64,000 nucleotides of DNA, from positions 3,523,501 through 3,587,500 of the forward strand of contig FSRD01000001.1 of NCBI GenBank assembly GCA_900129675.1. The letters run 5' to 3'. Of the stretch, positions 1 through 9,157 are shown in pieces. This stretch comes from Bradyrhizobium erythrophlei (GTDB lineage: Bacteria; Pseudomonadota; Alphaproteobacteria; Rhizobiales; Xanthobacteraceae). Each line of letters opens with the position of its first letter. The first letter of the stretch is position 1. The translations under genes and the position numbers were made by a program. The notes beneath the pieces are model-generated. The model searched no databases and was not told where the DNA came from. It saw only the letters and a program-made list of their open reading frames with translations.

Positions 1-1
1 C

Positions 2-94
2 CGCGAGTGGCTGCTCGCGGAAGCGACGAGCGATCTGCGCCAACTGAAGAAGCTCGGCTGGTCATTGCGGCCGATGAAGGAGAAGGGCGACTGA
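2..94 (+). CDS. C-terminal end of a gene entering from the left edge
   Basis: An open frame runs from the window edge to a TGA at 92-94 and gives 30 residues ending SLRPMKEKGD. The segment is charged and looks like an amphipathic C-terminal tail (RQLKKLGW). Too little is present to name a family. It is on the same strand as the downstream operon but about 190 bases away from it. Confidence 0.45.
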   Translation, partial: REWLLAEATSDLRQLKKLGWSLRPMKEKGD

Positions 95-176
95 TCTGGA
101 ACCGCCCGGGATTGTTCCGGACGCGAGTTCTATGATCACGCTTCAGCGAGGCCCTTCTTGTTCCGTCCTCTTCCGA

Positions 177-205
177 TTGACAATTTGAAGGGTCTGGCTC
201 TAGTT
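177..205 (+). promoter_or_regulatory. possible sigma-70-type promoter of the cytochrome/ABC operon
   Basis: A perfect TTGACA hexamer at 177-182 is followed after 17 bases by CTAGTT at 200-205, which is only a weak -10 element. It lies about 80 bases before the first gene of the operon. This is inference from hexamer matching alone. Confidence 0.3.
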
Positions 206-282
206 GCCCCCATGGGGAAAGCGATCTCCCCATGAGGCGACATGCCCAAGAATCGCGTCCAGTTTTTCGCCAAGGACGCAGC

Positions 283-1053
283 ATGCCCGCTATCAAGTCT
301 ATCTTTTCAGAACGATTTCGAATCGATCGGTGCAGTTCTGCGAAAGCATTCCATCGGTTGGCCGATGTCGCTTTGATACTGGCCACTTGCGTCGTTGCCG
401 CAACTGATCCGGCCAATGCTCAATCCCAAACTATCGACCTGTCGGGTCAGCCGATCGGCGCGCCGCCACAAGATTTCGAGTTCTGGCGCGCAGGCGAGGG
501 CGATTCTGGTCATTGGACCGTGGAGCGCGATGGCGCCTCGGATAGCAGCGTTTCAGTTCAGCGGTCAGGCGGGAACCGTGACCTGCACTCTTCGCTCGCC
601 GCGTGCAAGACGCTGTCGGCGGTCAATGCCAGGATCCGGGTCCAGTTCAAGCTGATCGATGGATCGATGCCGAGCGCCGGCATCGCCGTCCGGGTGACCA
701 GCCCGAACGACTACTATCTCGTGCGTGTCAGCGCATTCGAACAGCGCCTGTCGCTACTTCATGTCGTCAATGGAATGGCGGAAGAGGTTGCCGGGGTCGA
801 CGCCGATATCACGCTAGACCACTGGCAAAGCCTGGAAGTCGTCGTCGACGGCAACAGCTTCAAGATGTCGCTCGATAATCGCTGGGCGCTGACGGCGTTC
901 GACTACGGCAAGCCAGCTGGCGGTCACTTCGGAATTTGGACCGAACGAGATGACGTCACACGCTTCAACCAGATCGAGATAACACCGCTGACATACGTCG
1001 GCGACGACGAAAACCTGCGAAATCGGGCTGGAGGCGAGAGCAGGACGGAGTAG
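283..1053 (+). CDS. secreted protein with LamG/3-keto-glucoside-hydrolase-like fold
   Basis: The 256-residue product carries a long N-terminal export signal (hydrophobic core about residues 28-41, probable cleavage after ANA near 46), then a motif TIDLSGQPIGAPP at 50-62. The rest has the alternating beta-strand pattern, SAGIAVRVTSPNDYYLVR and closing GGHFGIWTERD typical of concanavalin-like or DUF1080-like jelly-roll domains. I chose ATG 283 because AAGGA precedes it at proper spacing; an upstream ATG at 232 has no ribosome site. It lies 4 bases before the cytochrome gene. The protein at 3813 shares the TIDLSG start and the same fold pattern, so the two look like paralogues bracketing the operon. 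No catalytic residues are evident, and a binding role is a guess. Confidence 0.7.
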   Translation: MPAIKSIFSERFRIDRCSSAKAFHRLADVALILATCVVAATDPANAQSQTIDLSGQPIGAPPQDFEFWRAGEGDSGHWTVERDGASDSSVSVQRSGGNRDLHSSLAACKTLSAVNARIRVQFKLIDGSMPSAGIAVRVTSPNDYYLVRVSAFEQRLSLLHVVNGMAEEVAGVDADITLDHWQSLEVVVDGNSFKMSLDNRWALTAFDYGKPAGGHFGIWTERDDVTRFNQIEITPLTYVGDDENLRNRAGGESRTE

Positions 1054-1057
1054 GCGG

Positions 1058-1696
1058 ATGATTCCCACAAGCAATCAATGGTCCCGGAAATGGCTGACGG
1101 TCTCCTGGCGTTCACTGGCGGCGCTTGCTCTAGCTGCATTGGCCGTCGTCGGCGGTGCCGGCGTGGTTGCCGCTGATGCCGTCGCCGGGAAGAACAAGGC
1201 GGAAGCGTGCGCCGGTTGTCACGGCGAAAAAGGTATCTCCGAAATCGAGAACACGCCTTCGTTGGCCGGGCAACCTGATCTCTTCATTCAGTGGCAGTTG
1301 ATTTTCTTCCGAGCCGGGGCACGAAAGAACGAAGTTATGGGTCCGCTCGCCGAGCAGCTTGGTAACGAAGACGTCCGGGATCTCGGTGCCTATTTTGCCT
1401 CGCTCAAGCCGCCTGAAAGTCCCGCGGCGGCCCCAGATGATCATCCTGACCTAACCGGGGCTGGCAAGAAAGTGGCGGCAGCCGGTCGCTGCGCGTCCTG
1501 CCACGGCGACAAATTCGCAGGCAGCAAGGCAGCCGCCCGAATAGCCGGACAACATGAGGAGTACATCACGAAGGCCCTTCACGATTATAAATCCGGCGTG
1601 CGGTCGGGAGGAGGCGTGGCCGCGATGGCGGAGGTCGCCTATCCCTTGAGTGACGATGAAATCGCGGCTCTGGCCCACTATCTCGCACGACTTTGA
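1058..1696 (+). CDS. diheme c-type cytochrome, cytochrome c4-like
   Basis: The 212-residue protein begins with a signal/anchor segment (hydrophobic residues about 20-39). It then contains two cytochrome c domains, each with a heme-binding CXXCH: CAGCH at 51-55 and CASCH at 145-149. Candidate axial methionines are M94 (VMGPLA) and M190 (AAMAEVAYPLSD). This tandem arrangement and length match the periplasmic c4 family of electron-transfer proteins. The gene begins four bases after the preceding stop, with its ribosome site (GGAG) inside that gene, and is followed 12 bases later by an ABC ATPase, so it is clearly in one operon. The redox partner is not encoded here. Confidence 0.9.
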   Translation: MIPTSNQWSRKWLTVSWRSLAALALAALAVVGGAGVVAADAVAGKNKAEACAGCHGEKGISEIENTPSLAGQPDLFIQWQLIFFRAGARKNEVMGPLAEQLGNEDVRDLGAYFASLKPPESPAAAPDDHPDLTGAGKKVAAAGRCASCHGDKFAGSKAAARIAGQHEEYITKALHDYKSGVRSGGGVAAMAEVAYPLSDDEIAALAHYLARL

Positions 1697-1708
1697 AACT
1701 GGTGTTAC

Positions 1709-2449
1709 ATGCCGTTAGCAGAATTGCCCACCAGCGATAGTTCTGTTCCGCCATTGCACGTCACTGACCTGACGAAACGATATGGCGAGGAGCGGGCCAT
1801 CGATTGTGTGACGTTTTCTGCGGCTGCCGGCGACGTGGTCGGCATTATCGGGCCAAATGGTGCCGGCAAGACCACTCTGCTGGAAACGGTTGTTGGCCTC
1901 CTTCCCGCTGATTCGGGGGAGGTTTTATGGCATGGCCAGGTGCTGCCGGCATCGCAAAGGCGCAACGCACTCTTTTATCTGCCGGATGGCGTGCGTCCTT
2001 ATCGGGATGAGGCGACTTTCCAGGTCGTGTCGTTTTTTGCAGGTATCTACAGGCGATCGAAGGCGGAGACCGCAGACACGATCGATTCGGTGGGGCTGAG
2101 TCCAGTGCTTCACAAGCGCGTACATGCGTTGTCGAAGGGGTATAACCGTCGTCTCTTGCTGGCGTTGGCTCTGTTGGCACCGCACCCCGTCCTGCTTATG
2201 GATGAGCCATTCGACGGGTTCGATTTGCGGCAAACACGCGAGATCGTCGAGGTGCTCCGCAACCAAGCCGCGCGCGGTCGGACGTTCATTCTTGCCATTC
2301 ATCAGTTGGCCGATGCGCAGCGGGTCTGTGACCGCGTGATTCTGATCGCAGCAGGCCGGGTTCGTGGGGCCGGCACCCTGGACGAATTACGCGCGCAAAC
2401 CGCGCTGCCTGCCGGCTCACTGGAGGATATCTTTCTTGCGCTCACGTAA
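1709..2449 (+). CDS. ABC transporter ATP-binding protein
   Basis: The 246-residue ATPase has Walker A GPNGAGKTT at 48-56, a Q-loop region near 80, a divergent signature LSKGYNRR at 141-148 instead of LSGGQ, Walker B VLLMDEP at 161-167 and a switch-histidine segment AIHQLAD. Such KGY/KGM signatures occur in ABC-2 exporters of the GldA/NosF/CcmA type. Its 3' end overlaps the start of the permease by 14 bases, implying translational coupling. It probably energises the GldF/G-like membrane subunit encoded next. Confidence 0.93.
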   Translation: MPLAELPTSDSSVPPLHVTDLTKRYGEERAIDCVTFSAAAGDVVGIIGPNGAGKTTLLETVVGLLPADSGEVLWHGQVLPASQRRNALFYLPDGVRPYRDEATFQVVSFFAGIYRRSKAETADTIDSVGLSPVLHKRVHALSKGYNRRLLLALALLAPHPVLLMDEPFDGFDLRQTREIVEVLRNQAARGRTFILAIHQLADAQRVCDRVILIAAGRVRGAGTLDELRAQTALPAGSLEDIFLALT

Positions 2450-3800
2450 GAGATATAGCCGGCAAACCGCGCCGCTGTGGCCGCTGCTCGCAAAGGAGTT
2501 GCGGGAAATCACCAGCGGCCGGGCGCTGTGGACCATGTTGCTGCTGCTGTGCCCGTTGATCGGCTATAGCTTCTTCCAGGCTGTTTCGCTTTACAACGAA
2601 GCAAGCACGGCGGCGCTGCAATCTCCGGTCCTGGCAAGCAGCCTATCGCCGCTGGACGGCATTCTGGTGCCCACGCTTGGCTCATTTTACGTCGCGGTAA
2701 CGCTCCTGTTTCCGTTCGTTGCCATCCGCGCACTTGGCCAGGAGAAGGAAACGGGTGCGCTGCGCCTGCTCGTGCAACTGCCGTATCGTCCATCTACGCT
2801 CGTGTTAGCCAAGCTTGCAGCAGTGCTTGCGGCCTGGGGTCTTGCCAGTATCCCAGCGCTTTCCGCCCTTACCTTTTGGCGCATTCTGGGTGGGCATTTG
2901 GCGCCGGCGGAGACGGCCAATCTCCTGTTCGGCCATCTGGCCTACGGCCTGCTGGTCGGCGCGCTCGCGTTATTCTCGGCGTCGATCTCGGATAGCGCGG
3001 CTACCGCCGCGATCGTTGCGCTCGCCATCACGATCGGGTCCTGGGTTCTGGATTTCACCGTCGCCGGCAATCCAGGGCTACTGTCATGGATTGCACAGCT
3101 GTCGCTCACCCAGACGCTGCGCGCGTTCGAGCAGGGGCTGCTGTCGGGCAGTCTCGTGCTGGGCACAGCGTCCGTGATCTTTGGCCTCATCGCGCTGGCC
3201 ACCGTGTGGTTGCCGCCCGGAGTTCCATCGCTCAGCAAACTGCGTAGCTCGCTGCCGTGGGTGTTGGCCGTAGCGGTGATGCTTGGCGCCGCTGCCCAAC
3301 TGAGGTTGACAGTCGACGTCACCGAGGACAGACGGAATTCGTTTCCGGGGTCTGATCAAAAGCTGCTCGCGACGCTGCGGCTCCCTTTGCTCGTGAGCGT
3401 GCATCTGGCTCCCGAGGATCCACGGTATGCCGACCTGCAACGCAATGTGCTGGCAAAACTCGGGCGCGCAATGCCAAACGTATCAGTCACTCTTGCCGGC
3501 CCACGGCAAGGTTTCTCGGGCGGGAGCAGCGACGAATCCTATGGCGAGGTCGAATACGTCTATGGCATTCGATCCGACATCAGCCGGTCGACGAGCCCCC
3601 GGGAGATTTTGCCGCTGATCTATGCGCTCGCGGGCGTTTCGCCTCCCTCGCCAACGCCCGGCGGCGAATATCCCGGCTATCCCCTGGTCGCCAGGGCTGA
3701 TGCCGCGCTTTTCTGGTTTTTCGGCGGATTGCCGCTTCTGATTGTCCTTTGCTGGTGGTGGATCCGCTGCCCACCTTCCGTCGACAACTTTCTCGCATGA
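2436..3800 (+). CDS. ABC-2 type permease with a GldG-like periplasmic domain
   Basis: I start this gene at TTG 2436, because a perfect GGAGG at 2422-2426 sits nine bases upstream, inside the ATPase gene; the open frame itself begins further upstream without such a site. The 454-residue product opens with LLAKELREITSGRALW, typical of ABC-2 permeases, and has about six hydrophobic segments in the first 300 residues. It then has a soluble part beginning VDVTEDRRNSFPGSDQKLL, resembling the GldG extracellular domain (DLTEDKR.. type), then a final membrane segment LFWFFGGLPLLIVLCWWW. GldF and GldG are normally separate or in larger fusions; here they appear compactly fused. The substrate is unknown; the cytochrome and two secreted jelly-roll proteins in the operon suggest an envelope or export role. 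Confidence 0.85.
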   Translation: MRSRKRYSRQTAPLWPLLAKELREITSGRALWTMLLLLCPLIGYSFFQAVSLYNEASTAALQSPVLASSLSPLDGILVPTLGSFYVAVTLLFPFVAIRALGQEKETGALRLLVQLPYRPSTLVLAKLAAVLAAWGLASIPALSALTFWRILGGHLAPAETANLLFGHLAYGLLVGALALFSASISDSAATAAIVALAITIGSWVLDFTVAGNPGLLSWIAQLSLTQTLRAFEQGLLSGSLVLGTASVIFGLIALATVWLPPGVPSLSKLRSSLPWVLAVAVMLGAAAQLRLTVDVTEDRRNSFPGSDQKLLATLRLPLLVSVHLAPEDPRYADLQRNVLAKLGRAMPNVSVTLAGPRQGFSGGSSDESYGEVEYVYGIRSDISRSTSPREILPLIYALAGVSPPSPTPGGEYPGYPLVARADAALFWFFGGLPLLIVLCWWWIRCPPSVDNFLA

Positions 3801-3812
3801 AGGAGGTCCGTC

Positions 3813-4535
3813 ATGATCAACAGAAACATTATTGCATGGATCGTTTTGGCAATCGGTCTCGCGGCGCTGGCTTTGCCAGGTAAAGCGGCACAGCCAACAA
3901 CCATCGATCTTTCCGGTGAAACTGTCGGAGCCGAGCCAAAGGCGCTCGTGCCGGTCGTGGGGATCTGGCGAATTGAAAACGACAATGGAAAGAAGGTGCT
4001 CACCGTCGACGGGCGGCAATGGAAGGAGGGGCAATCATCGGCGGGTATTGCCGACAAGGCGCGCGCGCTCTATGGCGAACGCTATGCTGAGTTTCTCGAC
4101 CGCGTTCAAGCCTACGCCTACTTTCCGTACGCAGTCGTGCCCGACGTCGAAAATTTCACAGGCGGCGAGATCACGGTGCGGTTTGAGGGATTGTCGGGTC
4201 GTATCGATCAGGGCGCCGGAATCCTGTTCAATCTCAAGCCGACTGGCGACTACATGACTATCCGCGCCAACTGTCTGGAAAACAACCTCGTGCTATGGAA
4301 GTTCGAGAAGGGCAAGCGCTCCTCGGTCAAGTGGGTACGCAATACGCCGACCGCGACGAAGCAATGGCACGAGCTCAAGGTCCAGATCAACGGCTCCAGG
4401 GTCGAGGGCTATCTCGACGGCAAGCTCTATCTTGAAGACACGCTGGCGCAGCCGGTGTCGGGCCGCATCGGCCTGTGGTCCAAAGCTGACAGCCATATGT
4501 ACTTCGCCGACTACACCGTCAAACCAGCCGATTGA
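3813..4535 (+). CDS. secreted protein with LamG/DUF1080-like fold, paralogue of the 283 gene
   Basis: The 240-residue protein has a clean signal peptide (hydrophobic residues 6-22, cleavage near GKAAQ) followed directly by TIDLSGETVGAEP at 30-42, the same mature N-terminus motif as the protein at 283. A jelly-roll-type body follows with GAGILFNLKPTGDYMTIRANC, HELKVQINGSRVEGYLDGKL and GRIGLWSKADSHMYFADY, the signature strands of the LamG/3-keto-disaccharide hydrolase (DUF1080) superfamily. A strong AAGGAGG lies eight bases before the ATG and only twelve bases separate it from the permease. It probably binds a sugar, polymer or other envelope ligand; hydrolase activity cannot be judged from sequence. 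Confidence 0.78.
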   Translation: MINRNIIAWIVLAIGLAALALPGKAAQPTTIDLSGETVGAEPKALVPVVGIWRIENDNGKKVLTVDGRQWKEGQSSAGIADKARALYGERYAEFLDRVQAYAYFPYAVVPDVENFTGGEITVRFEGLSGRIDQGAGILFNLKPTGDYMTIRANCLENNLVLWKFEKGKRSSVKWVRNTPTATKQWHELKVQINGSRVEGYLDGKLYLEDTLAQPVSGRIGLWSKADSHMYFADYTVKPAD

Positions 4536-4674
4536 TCGGATATTCGTGGCTGCAGCCGGCAGGGGTGATGATCAAGTGACGGATTTCGGGCGCAGAGGAG
4601 GGGCGCTCGCTGCGAACCAATGTTGAAGCCGCAAATTAATTCCTCCGCGGCGGACAAGCCAGGGAGCAAAAACC

Positions 4675-4902
4675 ATGTCGAAGCCAACAATCGCAACCCT
4701 TTTGTGCCTGATGGTTAGCCTCGTTGTGCCTGCCCATGCCCTTACCGACCAGGAGCTGATCGCCAAGCTTGAATCGGCCGGCTACACGCAGATCCGCGAC
4801 ATCAAATCCACGGCCGAAGGGATTTCGGTCAAGGCGATGAAGGACGGCAAAGACGTGTCCCTCGTTGTCGACAGCAGCGGCCAGGTCAAGGAGCGGAAGT
4901 AA
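4675..4902 (+). CDS. small periplasmic PepSY-like protein
   Basis: The 75-residue product has a signal peptide ending AHA at about 22 and a compact domain (LTDQELIAKLESAGYTQIRDIKSTAEGISVKAM in pattern, then DVSLVVDSSGQVKERK). That helix plus two-strand layout is the PepSY fold, often found in periplasmic peptidase-inhibitor or metal-linked proteins. A GGGAG site lies ahead of the ATG. It is 139 bases after the operon and on the same strand, so co-transcription is possible but not shown. Confidence 0.72.
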   Translation: MSKPTIATLLCLMVSLVVPAHALTDQELIAKLESAGYTQIRDIKSTAEGISVKAMKDGKDVSLVVDSSGQVKERK

Positions 4903-4918
4903 CGCAACGCCTCGGGTG

Positions 4919-5603
4919 CTAATTCAGGGCGGCGCCGAGTTCAGTGTCGATGACCGCGTTCCTCGTCGTGACCTTCTGCGCATCCAGATCGGCTTTCAAG
5001 CCGGCTTTGCTTGCGGGATCGGCGGCCGCCCGGATGACAAAGGCTTTGAGTTCCGCAACCGGGTTGCCGATCCGTCCGGTCGGTAAGCCGGCCGCAATGG
5101 ACTTCGCGGCCACCCGAGCCAACTTTGCGTTCAGTTGCGGACTGGCCCTATCGGCCTCCGACAGGACGCTTCCATCGTACGCGACAAGGGCAGACCGCAG
5201 GTCATCGAACTTGCCCGAGGTAAGGGCGGCGTCGAGCGTATCGACCAGAATTTTAGGATCGGTAGCGGCCGGCGCGCCGGTGAGCATTCCGAGTGTCTGA
5301 ACGAACGCCGAGGTCAGATAGAGGCGGGTGATCAGATAGACGCCCAGGAACGCCAGCGTGAAGAAATAGATGACGATGACGGGGACGATCGCGTCGTTGG
5401 CCGCCGCGCCGCCCTGGAGCGACCCCTTGCCGAGATTTCCGATCCAAGGCCGCGAGATCTTTGATCTGCACGAGCGTTGCGCCGATCAAGAGCGTGGTCA
5501 ACCAATCCGAAATCCGGGCGCCGCTTTTCCACACCCACGACGCGCAGTGGCTCGCCGCCGTTCCGATCCCCGAGGGATTGATAGTTTGGGCACTGGCCTG
5601 CTT
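4919..5603 (-). pseudogene. frameshifted membrane-protein gene
   Basis: Read on the minus strand, the upper part encodes SGARISDWLTTLLIGATLVQ in one frame. The lower part continues in another frame with LGKGSLQGGAAANDAIVPV, then a membrane segment (IVIYFFTLAFLGVYLITRLYL) and a 122-residue soluble tail ending TELGAALN. The join falls near 5445-5465, so one small insertion or deletion has split the gene. The ISDWLTTLLIGATLVQ stretch plus a later membrane segment recalls a family of uncharacterised bacterial proteins with ISDWLT..LVG..L motifs. No start codon with a ribosome site is visible, and a stop at 5604-5606 closes the frame, so the 5' end is probably also lost. It converges on the PepSY-like gene. 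Confidence 0.6.
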
Positions 5604-5671
5604 CTAAGTTGATTTTCGGAGTGTCAACATGGGTTACCCCGTATGGATTAATGCACGTTAGAACTACTGTA

Positions 5672-5687
5672 AGTCGGAATTCCGACT
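5672..5687. repeat. 16-bp perfect palindrome AGTCGGAATTCCGACT
   Basis: A perfect two-fold palindrome lies in the gap between the decayed membrane gene and the left end of the ISNCY element. It could be an operator or a hairpin; there is no T-run on either side, so it is not an obvious terminator. Confidence 0.5.
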
Positions 5688-5842
5688 GCGAAGTCGCTAA
5701 GTATTAAGTTTACTGACACTAGCTACTTTCCGGCGCAAAATTAGCGATTTCGGGATTGTGGCCGATGAGGTGCGCAAAGCAAGACCCGCCGGGGCTGCCG
5801 GCAGGGGTATTTTGAGAGACTGATTGGTCGAGGAGCCGGCGC

Positions 5843-7258
5843 TTAGGACGCCGCCCGCTTTTCCATGGCACGGCCGATGTTGATGATGTTGTCGGCGATC
5901 ATGCCGAGCCCGACCCAACGCTTCATTCCGGCGTCGCCCTTGTATCGGCAGCGGTTGAGACCGTGCCGCCGCTTGGAGACGCTGATGCGTCCCTCGCAGC
6001 CGGTCCGCCACTTCTGACCGTTGCGGAACCAGCGCTTCCTTTGCTCACGCTTGCGCTCGGGACTCTTGGTCGAGCGGTTGGGAATGCAGACGCGTTTTAC
6101 GCCCTGGGCTTTCGCTGCTGCCTCGTTCTTGGCGGAGTAGAATGCGGCATCCGCTGCCACCATGTGCGGCGGACGTCCCAGCATTGCTCGATGCGTCTCG
6201 ATGGCGGCAATCAGCAGGTCCGAATCGCTCGGACGCCGATCATAGACCTCGTAATCGATCACGATCTGGTCCTCGGCCTCCTGCAGCTTCACCATCTTGC
6301 CGAACTCGTTCGGCTTGCCGGCCTTGCCCTTGCGAATGATCTCCGTCGATGGCTCGAACAGGCTGAGGAGCTTGCCTTCGGCGTGTGTGTCGCCGCGGAA
6401 GATACGCGCTCTCGTCTGCTTCATCACTTGCTTGACCAGCGGCACCATCGCGTCGAGCTCTTGGCGCAGGCCTTCGAGCACCAACTGCTGCAGGACGTTC
6501 CTTGCGCGCTTGGTTCCTCTGGCGACCTCTTTGGAGAACCGCTTCGCCTGTCCCACCACTCGGCTGGTCGCATTGAGCAGCTTGCCATAGGATCGATTGA
6601 GCTTCTCCCGGCTCTGCTTGGCTCTGGAGCGCGCCGCCCGGGCGATGTCCAGGACCCGCAGCTTCACGCTGCGACTGCGGTCGCGCAGCTTGGCGCCAGT
6701 CTCGCCGGCGATCTTGCCAATCCTTTTCATGGTGCGGATCAGAACCCGCACGCCATCGCCCAACAAGCTCGAATCGGTCGGATAGTGGACGTTGGTCTCC
6801 ACCACGGTGGTGTCCACGCGCATTCTGCGCCCCGCTGCCAACCCGTTGGCTTGAGCCAGCTTCACCAGCCTTTGGTGAATCTGCTTGACCACCTCGGGCC
6901 CCACTGCCAGACCCCAACGTCCCATCGTCTTTGCATCGGGTGTCTTGCCGGCGCCGACGCGAGTGAAGTCGCGGTACACCAGATTGGCGCGCACCTCGCG
7001 CTCGAGCACTTGGTAGCTCCAGTTGCGGATGTGCTTGAGGATCAGTAGCCGCAACACCACCTCGGCTGGGGCACCGCGCCGGCCGCGGCTGCGGCTCTTG
7101 GCATGTCGTCTTGCCAGAGCCTCGTAGACGGCCGCGACGATGTCCTCATCCGCCAGCACCGCATCGGCGTGTTTCATCCAGTCTTCGCGAAGATCGCTCA
7201 CTTCCTCGGCGATCAGCCCGTCGCCGAAGCTGAGCTGCGCCCGCCGCATCTCAATCAT
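5843..7258 (-). CDS. ISNCY-family transposase
   Basis: The 471-residue enzyme should catalyse DNA cleavage and strand transfer for this element. It includes LRLLILKHIRNWSYQVLERE, VDTTVVETNVHYPTDSSLL (a DDE-type first acidic region), a basic helical linker, IFRGDTHAEGKLLSLFEP and a closing GMKRWVGLGMIADNIINIG. These features match transposases classed as ISNCY in rhizobia. I place the start at ATG 7258, preceded by GGAGGAAG, rather than the longer frame to 7321. It overlaps the accessory gene by eight bases. Confidence 0.88.
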   Translation of the reverse strand: MIEMRRAQLSFGDGLIAEEVSDLREDWMKHADAVLADEDIVAAVYEALARRHAKSRSRGRRGAPAEVVLRLLILKHIRNWSYQVLEREVRANLVYRDFTRVGAGKTPDAKTMGRWGLAVGPEVVKQIHQRLVKLAQANGLAAGRRMRVDTTVVETNVHYPTDSSLLGDGVRVLIRTMKRIGKIAGETGAKLRDRSRSVKLRVLDIARAARSRAKQSREKLNRSYGKLLNATSRVVGQAKRFSKEVARGTKRARNVLQQLVLEGLRQELDAMVPLVKQVMKQTRARIFRGDTHAEGKLLSLFEPSTEIIRKGKAGKPNEFGKMVKLQEAEDQIVIDYEVYDRRPSDSDLLIAAIETHRAMLGRPPHMVAADAAFYSAKNEAAAKAQGVKRVCIPNRSTKSPERKREQRKRWFRNGQKWRTGCEGRISVSKRRHGLNRCRYKGDAGMKRWVGLGMIADNIINIGRAMEKRAAS

Positions 7259-7610
7259 GCTGCTTCCTCCGCCTCTTCGATGCGGCCCGTTCCGGACGCA
7301 GCAGATCATGATTGAGCTCACAAACGGTCTCGATCGCCTCCTTCAGGTCCTGATAATTGCTCAGCCAGCGGCGCACCTCGGCAACCCGCTCGCGCCGCAC
7401 GCTGAACTGGCGCGTATGTCCTCCCGGGTAGGTCACCGTCAAGACAAACACGTGATGCCCTTCGCCACGCGCGCATTTCGGGCATCCTTTGGTGTGTCGG
7501 ATGGTGCGTTCCAGCAGCGAGCCGCGCAGCAACTCGCCGGTGATCGGCAATTTGCCGACCAGCTTCTGACGCGCTCGGAGGGTCCGCTCTCGAATCAAGG
7601 GTCGCGACAA
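7251..7610 (-). CDS. DUF6788-like accessory protein of the ISNCY element
   Basis: This 119-residue basic protein lies just upstream of the transposase and overlaps it. It has a pair CPKCARGEGHHVFVLTVTYPGG that looks like half of a zinc site or a beta hairpin. A helical C-terminus (VRRWLSNYQDLKEAIETVCELNHDLL) follows. I recall similar short proteins (DUF6788) next to transposases and in IS-rich contexts. The frame opens with TTG at 7610; the true start may lie further in, near TLRARQKLV. Its role in transposition is unknown. Confidence 0.65.
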   Translation of the reverse strand: MSRPLIRERTLRARQKLVGKLPITGELLRGSLLERTIRHTKGCPKCARGEGHHVFVLTVTYPGGHTRQFSVRRERVAEVRRWLSNYQDLKEAIETVCELNHDLLRPERAASKRRRKQHD

Positions 7611-7708
7611 ACGTCAACCCAAATCCGTCCGATCTTGCAGTTTTCCGCAAACCAGTCGATTCTATCCAAAAGCCAACGTCATCCAATTTTGCGCCGGAAA
7701 GTAGCTAG

Positions 7709-7893
7709 GGGACCGTGCGCGTAGTAGGACGAGGCCATTATGGAGCGGCTGTATCTTTTCTTAGAGGGTGAGTCGTATTTCAGGGACGAGATGATACTCG
7801 AAGTAAGAGATGTCCGGCTTTCGAAGGAAAGCCACCGTGTCGCCCAGCTATGATTCCGGGTACTAGGTCAGCGTTTCCTTGGTTCGAATCATA
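7709..7893. other. short gap between two insertion sequences
   Basis: The gap contains one 37-codon open frame (7740-7853, plus strand, MERLYLFLEGESYF...) with no recognisable family. It may be a remnant of the gene that the two elements hit. I see no promoter or terminator. Confidence 0.3.
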
Positions 7894-9157
7894 TCAGGCG
7901 GCCTCGGCGAGTTTGTAAGACCAAGTATGGATAACCGGATGCCGATTGACGTCCTTGATGCCGAACATGATGCGTTCCTTGAGTTCCTGTTTTGATGCTA
8001 CGCGGATGTGGCGCAGGACGGAGCGGGCGAACTTGGAGAAGAAGCCCTCGATGAGGTTGAGCCACGAGCCGTGTTTGGGCGTGAAGGTGAACGCGAAGCG
8101 GCCGCTCGGTTGAGTAGCGAGCCAAGCTTGGGTTTCTCGGGAGATATGTGCCGAGTGGTTGTCCAGGATCAGCTTGATCGCTGTACCGGCCGGGTAAGCG
8201 GCATTGAGAAGTTTGAGGAATTCAATGAACTCGCGACTGCGGTGGCGGTCTTTGACCAGGGCGTGGACCTTGCCGGTGAGCAGGTCAATCCCAGCCAGCA
8301 GGCTGAGCGTGCCATGGCGCTTGTACTCATGATCGCGCGAGAATGTCGCGTAGGTGCCAGGCACGGGCGGCAAATCCGGCGATGTGGTCGCGATCGCCTG
8401 GATTCCCGGCTTCTCATCGTAGGAGACGATCGCTACCGGTTTGCCCGGTTTCTTAGGCTTGCTCTTCGCCTTGGCCGCGGCCTTTTTCAGGACCTGAACC
8501 TCGCGATAGACGCACAGGACCTCCGCCATCTTCTGTTCGAACTCGGCGTCGCGGCGTTCCAGATAGTAACGCACCTTATGCGGCTTGACTTCCTCCTGGC
8601 CGAGAATCTTGCACACCGTGCCTTGGACAAGATTGGCGAGACATCCGTGTCCCGCCGCCGCCCCGTGCTCACGCGCATGGCGCGCCAGCAGATGCGTCGT
8701 CCACAACTCGTGCGGATAGCCGTGATCCTTGGCCTTGTCACAGGCCAACGACACCAGCCAGGCCTTGGCCTCCGGCGTAATCGATGGCTCCTTGCCCGGT
8801 CGGGGGCGATCATCAAGCGCCATCAATGGCCCATAGGCCAGTGCCCGCTCGATGCAGCGTTGGACCGTCTGATGATGCACGCCCAACCGTTGTCCCACGG
8901 CAAAAAAAGATGGGTTCTCGCGATAAGCCAGAAGCATTTGCGCACGCTCCACCCGGCTCGCCGGCTCGGTTCGAGACCGCGAAAGGGCCACCAACCGCGC
9001 GACCTCCTCATCCGTCATCGCCACCTCAAGCGCTTGTCGCCATGTCGCCATGATGTCTCTCCTCGTTCAGCTCTTCTCAAACGAGGAATCCGCCAACATC
9101 CTTCCGGTTCCATGGTTCGCGCTTCATCGATGCCGGTTTCATGGAATCGGTCGTCTA
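7864..9157 (-). mobile_element. IS630-family insertion sequence (ends tentative)
   Basis: The transposase at 7894-9051 defines the element. Its ends are tentative: a TA inside CTAG occurs at both 7864-7865 and 9156-9157, as expected for TA-targeting IS630 elements. The inward sequences TAGGTCAGCGTTTCCTTGG and TAGACGACCGATTCCATGA are only partly similar inverted repeats. Confidence 0.5.
7894..9051 (-). CDS. IS630-family transposase
   Basis: The 385-residue protein starts with helix-turn-helix segments (LGVHHQTVQRCIERAL). A DDE catalytic core follows: VSYDEKPGIQAI (first Asp region), LILDNHSAHISRET (second Asp) and HGSWLNLIEGFFSKFAR (Glu). This order is diagnostic of IS630/Tc1-type transposases, which insert at TA. 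The gene appears complete, with no frameshift. The long open frame on the opposite strand is a shadow of it. Confidence 0.93.
   Translation of the reverse strand: MATWRQALEVAMTDEEVARLVALSRSRTEPASRVERAQMLLAYRENPSFFAVGQRLGVHHQTVQRCIERALAYGPLMALDDRPRPGKEPSITPEAKAWLVSLACDKAKDHGYPHELWTTHLLARHAREHGAAAGHGCLANLVQGTVCKILGQEEVKPHKVRYYLERRDAEFEQKMAEVLCVYREVQVLKKAAAKAKSKPKKPGKPVAIVSYDEKPGIQAIATTSPDLPPVPGTYATFSRDHEYKRHGTLSLLAGIDLLTGKVHALVKDRHRSREFIEFLKLLNAAYPAGTAIKLILDNHSAHISRETQAWLATQPSGRFAFTFTPKHGSWLNLIEGFFSKFARSVLRHIRVASKQELKERIMFGIKDVNRHPVIHTWSYKLAEAA

Follow-up and report, generated by a model that had tools for sequence, protein, structure and literature searches.

A five-gene operon lies at the start of the window, by which we mean the whole stretch of 64,000 nucleotides of Bradyrhizobium erythrophlei DNA that was analysed. 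It is read here as an accessory module of a chromate-type (oxyanion) resistance regulon, with a probability, as judged from sequence, of roughly 0.7. The conserved core of the operon is an ATP-binding cassette (ABC) ATPase, a permease and a secreted LamG-type protein. The accessory-module reading is favoured because chromate-resistance (chr)-type neighbours are present in all eight opened plasmid stretches, from nine matching records, that carry relatives of the LamG protein. The core trio is also linked to ChrA-, ChrB-, ChrL- or superoxide dismutase (SOD)-type genes in separate lineages, namely the alpha- and betaproteobacteria, and the association of the operon with chr loci is strong. The operon lies on the plus strand of an 8.65 Mb contig in a genome of 11.7 Mb, with the following features.

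209-285, plus strand: chrB-a cis-regulatory RNA (RF03078; Rfam covariance model, 82.7 bits)
283-1053, plus strand: g1, secreted LamG-like protein, variable member (relatives in loci L026 and L028)
1058-1696, plus strand: g2, diheme c4-type cytochrome c, variable member (two PF00034 stretches, E 1.5e-16)
1709-2449, plus strand: g3, ABC ATPase, conserved core (PF00005, E 2.1e-22)
2436-3800, plus strand: g4, ABC-2 permease, conserved core (PF12679, E 4.1e-10)
3813-4535, plus strand: g5, secreted LamG-type protein, conserved core (domain profiles)
4675-4902, plus strand: g6, small secreted PepSY_2-like protein (PF13670, 24.7 bits, cut-off 24.3)

The tight packing of g1 to g5, which an earlier note on this DNA had described, was confirmed: successive genes are separated by 4 bases, 12 bases, a 14-base overlap (g3/g4) and 12 bases. 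The LSKGY signature in g3 and the TIDLSG motif near the mature start of both g1 and g5 were also as reported there, the motif being preceded in both proteins by a signal-like N terminus as judged by eye. So too was the assignment of g2 as a c4-type cytochrome, given its two cytochrome c domains and two CxxCH motifs. The same note had treated the interval 283-4902 as five genes. These stand, but a sixth, g6, begins 139 bases past g5 and had gone undescribed, and the chrB-a RNA at 209-285 had been missed altogether. The start of g1 at 283 is matched by a Shine-Dalgarno sequence, AAGGA at 272-276; an alternative in-frame ATG at 232 is not kept in L026. The TTG start codon of g4 agrees with the starts in relatives. 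Homologues of g6 were found in other chr-type loci (L022, L023, L033, L075, L076 and L078).

The trio and its chr-type neighbours

Within the genus, permease orthologues were present in 9 of 60 genomes, and in a sample of 397 genomes from the order they were present in 2, the B. erythrophlei genome being counted in both; a permease match was obtained in 11 of 100 genomes searched, two of these being weak matches only. The named relatives belong to Bradyrhizobium, to alphaproteobacterial metagenome-assembled genomes and to one Mesorhizobium. A single scan of genome contigs gave ten named loci; the four weak permease matches from the search of 100 genomes (L018-L021) were excluded. After merging (L010 with L022, L011 with L026, L012 with L033, L013 with L034, L014 with L028, L015 with L035, L016 with L036 and L017 with L037), the set comprised 17 alphaproteobacterial loci; given that L028 and L030 are near-identical, fewer than 17 are independent.

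The ABC ATPase, the permease and a g5-type LamG protein occur together in all 17 loci, with ATPase and permease in one shared frame in L030. Of the gene order in the earlier note, the trio is thus conserved in other genomes but the cytochrome is variable. A chrB-a or chrB-b RNA stands at the head of 16 loci (the window, L022-L030, L033-L037 and L081), the exception being L031. The RNA alone precedes the ATPase gene in nine loci (L025, L027, L028, L029, L030, L034, L035, L036 and L037), g1 and cytochrome c4 precede it in two (the window and L026, the latter from B. australiense WSM 1791), and a cytochrome remnant lacking the first heme motif does so in L081. Genes for DUF1259 and PepSY proteins take this position in L022 and L023, genes for ChrB and DUF1259 proteins in L024 and L033, with ChrA and PepSY in addition in L033, and genes for ChrB-like and DUF1259 proteins, with no RNA, in L031. 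In L033 a single run consists of the RNA, ChrB, ChrA, PepSY, DUF1259, ATPase, permease and LamG, and L024 is similar. The earlier note knew of no described system with this gene set; the neighbours in relatives prove to be of chromate-resistance type.

Two details of individual loci were observed in passing. The c4 remnant at L081:316-771 matches residues 92-212 of g2 only, and the ABC-permease-LamG core behind it is otherwise intact. At L031:9929-11964 (Mesorhizobium LSJC280B00), the second part of a broken permease frame runs into the LamG frame, which may be a sequencing error.

The permease query matched three of 72,556 plasmid records, with 49-50% identity. Two of them, pBVIE03 and pBVIE01, are from Burkholderia vietnamiensis G4, and the third is from Cupriavidus metallidurans Ni-2. 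The g5 protein is 66-67% identical on these three betaproteobacterial plasmids, and all three trio-bearing stretches carry chr genes. The run on pBVIE03 is ChrB, ChrA, SOD, ChrA, a ChrB_C-type protein, DUF1259, ABC ATPase, permease and LamG, with small hypothetical genes between; the ATPase is missing from the gene table and was seen as two frames. On pBVIE01 the order is SOD, ChrA, DUF1259, ATPase (two frames), permease and LamG. C. metallidurans Ni-2 has a second LamG protein, encoded behind the ChrB_C gene.

The g5 query matched nine plasmid records, eight of which were opened, H8 being left out as it has the same length and match coordinates as H7. Chr-type neighbours were found in all eight, stretches from Bacteroidota and Actinomycetota among them. 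ChrA or ChrB lies near the LamG gene in seven of the eight, and in the Nocardia stretch a DUF1259 gene directly precedes it. No chrB RNA reached the gathering score in the eight opened stretches, and the gene association is therefore independent of the RNA. As a separate observation, three plasmid chr loci have a different ABC set (solute-binding protein, permease and ATPase) adjoining the chr genes (L082:6500-9338, L106:2327-5626 and L108:6626-9959).

Several of these components have published counterparts. The chr locus of Arthrobacter FB24 includes chrL, chrK and chrJ; the product of chrL is an LppY/LpqO protein, belonging to the DUF1259 family, and this gene is induced by chromate and required for resistance to be complete (Henne and colleagues, PMC2751784). 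The pMOL28 locus of strain CH34 is chrIBACEFONPYZ, the accessory genes of which are reported as chromate-induced, no data being given there (PMC2864759); comparison of its gene order with that of Ni-2 puts chrO in the place of the second LamG protein, which suggests that chrO may encode a LamG protein. In C. neocaledonicus the operon is chrB2A2CF-cep-chrL, in which cep stands for an exported protein whose lectin domain is concanavalin A-like (PMC7060636), so a lectin-type protein in chr loci has already been seen. ChrB, ChrA, SOD and ChrL-type DUF1259 proteins are thus common to the Cupriavidus and Arthrobacter loci and those described here, as is an exported lectin-fold protein in C. neocaledonicus, whereas the GldF/NosY-like ABC pair, the c4 cytochrome and the leader RNA are not named in the available parts of those reports. 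The chrB RNAs themselves are already known from Rfam, as is cep from its operon. Within the available portions of the sources, literature searches gave no description of the ABC pair, or of the link between RNA and operon, at chromate loci. The original account of the chrB RNAs, reportedly by Weinberg and colleagues from 2017, lies outside those sources and may list some of these genes.

The chrB leader RNAs

The chrB-a RNA is the sole Rfam match in the whole window. Its score exceeds the gathering score of 43.9 bits, and the match is full length (model positions 1-80). Two RNA families, chrB-a (RF03078) and chrB-b (RF03086), bear this name; the copy in the window is distinguished by what it heads, an ABC-LamG-cytochrome operon. 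Its parts are as follows.

213-232, plus strand: hairpin 1 of chrB-a, 213-218 pairing with 227-232 (Rfam structure line)
221-225, plus strand: loop GCGAU, proposed pseudoknot partner of AUCGC at 252-256 (from pair counts)
255-279, plus strand: hairpin 2 of chrB-a, 255-260 pairing with 274-279 (Rfam structure line, pair counts)

Hairpin 2 overlaps the Shine-Dalgarno sequence of g1 and ends three bases before the ATG at 283, and all 12 chrB-a copies that were compared here terminate at an ATG or GTG. Pairing was counted over 32 hand-chosen copies, divergent ones being favoured; as these copies are kin, the shuffles used with the counts are not probabilities. Hairpin 2 is paired in 97.4% of cells, with two pairs varying on both sides. 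The GCGAU/AUCGC pairing is formed in 96.9% of cells, but four of its five pairs are invariant and therefore uninformative; the fifth is UA in 22 rows, AU in 2, GU in 2, unpaired in 5 and a gap in 1. Given that bases 255 and 256 are common to the pseudoknot and the outer part of hairpin 2, the two structures compete, which suggests a translational switch. In such a switch, chrB-a would act in cis on translation of g1: hairpin 2 would hide the g1 Shine-Dalgarno sequence, the pseudoknot sharing two bases with it would be the alternative state, and a stress signal, perhaps an oxyanion or the product of one, would free the ribosome site.

A leader peptide was considered and rejected. An ATG at 242-244, following GAGG, could start a short open reading frame, but it is missing in the ChrB-ChrA copy of the same genome and in the ten copies (L114-L123) that represent other families within the order; the simpler explanation is therefore constraint on the RNA.

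The B. erythrophlei genome contains three chrB-a and five chrB-b sites.

chrB-a, site 1: heads the window operon
chrB-a, site 2: heads a rhodanese-ChrB_C protein, then ChrA
chrB-a, site 3: heads a DUF1259 (ChrL-type) protein
chrB-b: heads a LamG protein, then a major facilitator superfamily (MFS) transporter
chrB-b: heads TauE
chrB-b: heads a YncE-like protein, then a ChrB_C protein, about 2 kb upstream of the first base of the window
chrB-b, L041:4473-4842: heads a short open reading frame with a 52-residue g1-like C-terminal remnant, then SOD
chrB-b, L051:9526-9571 on a 1.6 Mb contig: above cut-off, with no recognisable chr gene behind the site

Thus, of the seven sites outside the window operon, four lead ChrB-ChrA, DUF1259, YncE with ChrB_C, or SOD genes, two lead TauE or LamG-MFS genes, and one leads nothing recognisable. 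With g5 as query, the family members found in this genome were g5, g1 and the LamG protein behind chrB-b; every one found therefore sits behind a chrB RNA. Among 120 relatives searched, 81 had a chrB-a match, above cut-off in 80, with 129 places listed, 127 of them above cut-off. A ChrB-type gene adjoins chrB-a in 19 of the 29 listed places that were inspected, these surroundings being read with a simple gene caller that left several others unlabelled.

Inspection of the chrB-b sites by eye gave two further observations, each for most of the eight copies. Beyond the Rfam model there is a possible extra hairpin with a GAGGA-type Shine-Dalgarno sequence and an ATG (for example at L050:9891-9939, L032:9965-10013, L022:1757-1803 and L028:9128-9174, plus four more), and the GCAG of the loop could form pairs with a CTGC lying downstream, as the chrB-a loop does with its partner.

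Relationships of the ABC pair and the LamG proteins

The ATPase and permease are distantly related to GldA and GldF. The best NCBIfam match of g3 is GldA (155.3 bits, E 2.4e-45, against a cut-off of 402.6), and that of g4 is GldF (33.4 bits, E 4.5e-8, against 288.5), so both remain below the family cut-offs. An alignment and a low-confidence model place a soluble alpha/beta domain at approximately residues 300-400 of g4, followed by the last transmembrane helix. The earlier note had proposed that this tail is GldG-like, which could not be established. No match of PF09822 to g4 was found at E ≤ 1. An hhalign comparison of the permease with the GldG set gave an E value of 0.00097 but a probability of 22%, and the profile test barely separated permeases from shuffled tails: when full permeases were set against shuffled tails, 1 of 5000 of the latter beat the best of 10 permeases, and the window permease ranked 22nd. 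PF09822 proteins occur as separate genes in 20 of the 100 genomes searched, that of B. erythrophlei included; one such protein (ABC_transp_aux, GldG-type) lies about 5 kb past the end of the window (G000:C4:3592344-3592907).

Structure models were built from ten sequences each, L031 being omitted, with permeases 69-88% and LamG proteins 75-91% identical to those of the window. Their mean predicted local distance difference test (pLDDT) values were 49.9 for the permease and 44.6 for g5. The permease model gave no Foldseek match at E ≤ 0.001. Its top-ranked row was NosY, at a non-significant E of 0.49 and tied with an unrelated low-probability ATP synthase chain. In a second structural comparison, LptF (Z 8.3) scored as high as NosY (Z 8.1, root mean square deviation (rmsd) 5.7, 161 residues aligned), and such Z values can reflect common arrangements, according to the tool's own caution. 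Residues 294-400 of this low-confidence model resemble glutaredoxin/thioredoxin folds (1j08_A, Z 8.4, rmsd 3.1, 94 aligned). The permease profile had no match at E ≤ 1 among sequences of solved structures. Taken as a whole, the permease is distantly GldF/NosY-like.

Both LamG proteins had been described in the earlier note as LamG/DUF1080-like. Laminin_G_2 narrowly passes its cut-off in g5 (24.0 versus 22.9 bits). The DUF1080 part is weak: PF06439 (DUF1080, 3-keto-disaccharide hydrolase) stays below its cut-off of 26.8 bits in g1 (18.5 bits, E 0.0023) and g5 (19.8 bits, E 0.00086). The low-confidence g5 model resembles CBM66 (Z 8.9, rmsd 3.8, 121 aligned) and galectins. The best match of the LamG profile among sequences of solved structures was a cellulase, at E 0.015.

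NosDFY is the ABC machine for nitrous oxide reductase. As there, the operon encodes its ATPase and ABC-2 permease as separate proteins, alongside a secreted partner; it differs in that this partner is of LamG type and the permease has an extra domain. Organisation of the NosDFY kind (ATPase, permease and secreted beta-fold partner) is used here as a working analogy, not a membership. With GldA-GldF-GldG the operon shares a distant similarity of ATPase and permease.

A probable accessory chromate module and its alternatives

If the operon is an accessory module of a chromate-type regulon, the ATPase and permease might form a transporter of NosFY/GldFG type, and the soluble domain of the permease, with its LamG partner, could act in the envelope. 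The transporter might then export or load a ligand for sequestering chromium or for repairing the damage done by chromate; each of these steps is proposed with low confidence. The diheme cytochrome would be an optional addition, perhaps serving electron flow in the periplasm or the reduction of Cr(VI). A fuller proposal is possible, though we consider it doubtful: that chrB-a and chrB-b are translational pseudoknot switches sensing a chromate-type oxyanion or its reduction product, and that they control ChrB-ChrA together with a NosDFY-like ABC machine whose lectin-fold partners help to export or sequester chromium species in the envelope. To our knowledge, an ATP-driven mechanism of this sort is not yet known for chromate resistance.

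Several observations weigh against the accessory-module reading or parts of it. The ChrA gene behind the second chrB-a site lies at a distance of 3.3 Mb and another ChrA pair at 0.6 Mb, and upstream near the window there are only genes for the ChrB_C protein, the YncE-like protein and a glutathione S-transferase-like protein. With ChrA elsewhere in the genome, the operon is accordingly not classed as a chr operon itself. The chrB-b site in L051 leads no recognisable gene, and L031 has chr genes without a chrB RNA and with a broken permease frame. Among the plasmids, both B. vietnamiensis records have a split ATPase frame, and the C. metallidurans Ni-2 trio is on the other strand, approximately 5 kb from ChrB and the other chr genes and separated from them by another ABC set. 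The pseudoknot depends on a single covarying pair, which fails to form in 5 of 31 rows, and the structure models are poor. In Ochrobactrum tritici, ChrA has an effect on resistance to vanadate as well (PMC7039435), and chr loci may serve another oxyanion.

Among the alternatives, the one that survives best, though unlikely, is a generic exporter of polysaccharide or lipid that has lectin partners, is carried along as chr islands collect envelope-stress genes and plays no chromium-specific role. The LamG/CBM66/galectin-like fold of the g5 model, the weak 3-keto-disaccharide hydrolase matches, the patchy distribution in genus and order and the mobile elements nearby are all consistent with it. 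However, alpha- and betaproteobacteria alike show the linkage to chr-type genes, as does every plasmid stretch opened for the LamG family, and the operon has a leader RNA in common with ChrB-ChrA.

The earlier note had itself suggested a redox-coupled machine for export or assembly in the envelope; in the form weighed here, the c4 cytochrome would power the exporter or oxidise its cargo. The c4 gene is indeed co-directional with the ATPase gene, 12 bases from it, and the extra permease domain in the model is glutaredoxin/thioredoxin-like. Nonetheless, c4 is intact in only 2 of the 17 loci (the window and L026) and a remnant in one (L081), the tail of the window permease has no CxxC motif, and no c4 homologue was found in plasmid stretches L082 and L083. 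Redox coupling as a conserved feature is rejected because the cytochrome varies among loci, and the proposal as a whole appears improbable. Slightly less probable still is a GldFG-type export module transferred into rhizobia: the best NCBIfam matches are to GldA and GldF, but both fall far under the curated cut-offs, g4 has no PF09822 match, and PF09822 proteins are encoded by separate genes in 20 of the 100 genomes searched.

The accessory-module reading would give a testable context to three elements of unknown function: the orphan chrB-a/chrB-b RNA pair, an ABC transporter not yet characterised and the exported lectin-like protein found in chr loci. A response of the RNA to chromate, or to some other oxyanion, would make it a natural pollutant sensor. 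Chromate resistance has so far been explained by ChrA efflux and reduction; if the reading is true, the ABC trio would add an ATP-driven branch to it.

Signs of an island were also seen. Recombinase- and transposase-like open reading frames were noted by eye at positions 1-9000 of the window and at L032:1-3600, and a group II intron match lies at L032:3525-3597. The GC content at third codon positions of g1 to g5 is 0.63-0.72, versus 0.72-0.85 for the chr genes of L050.

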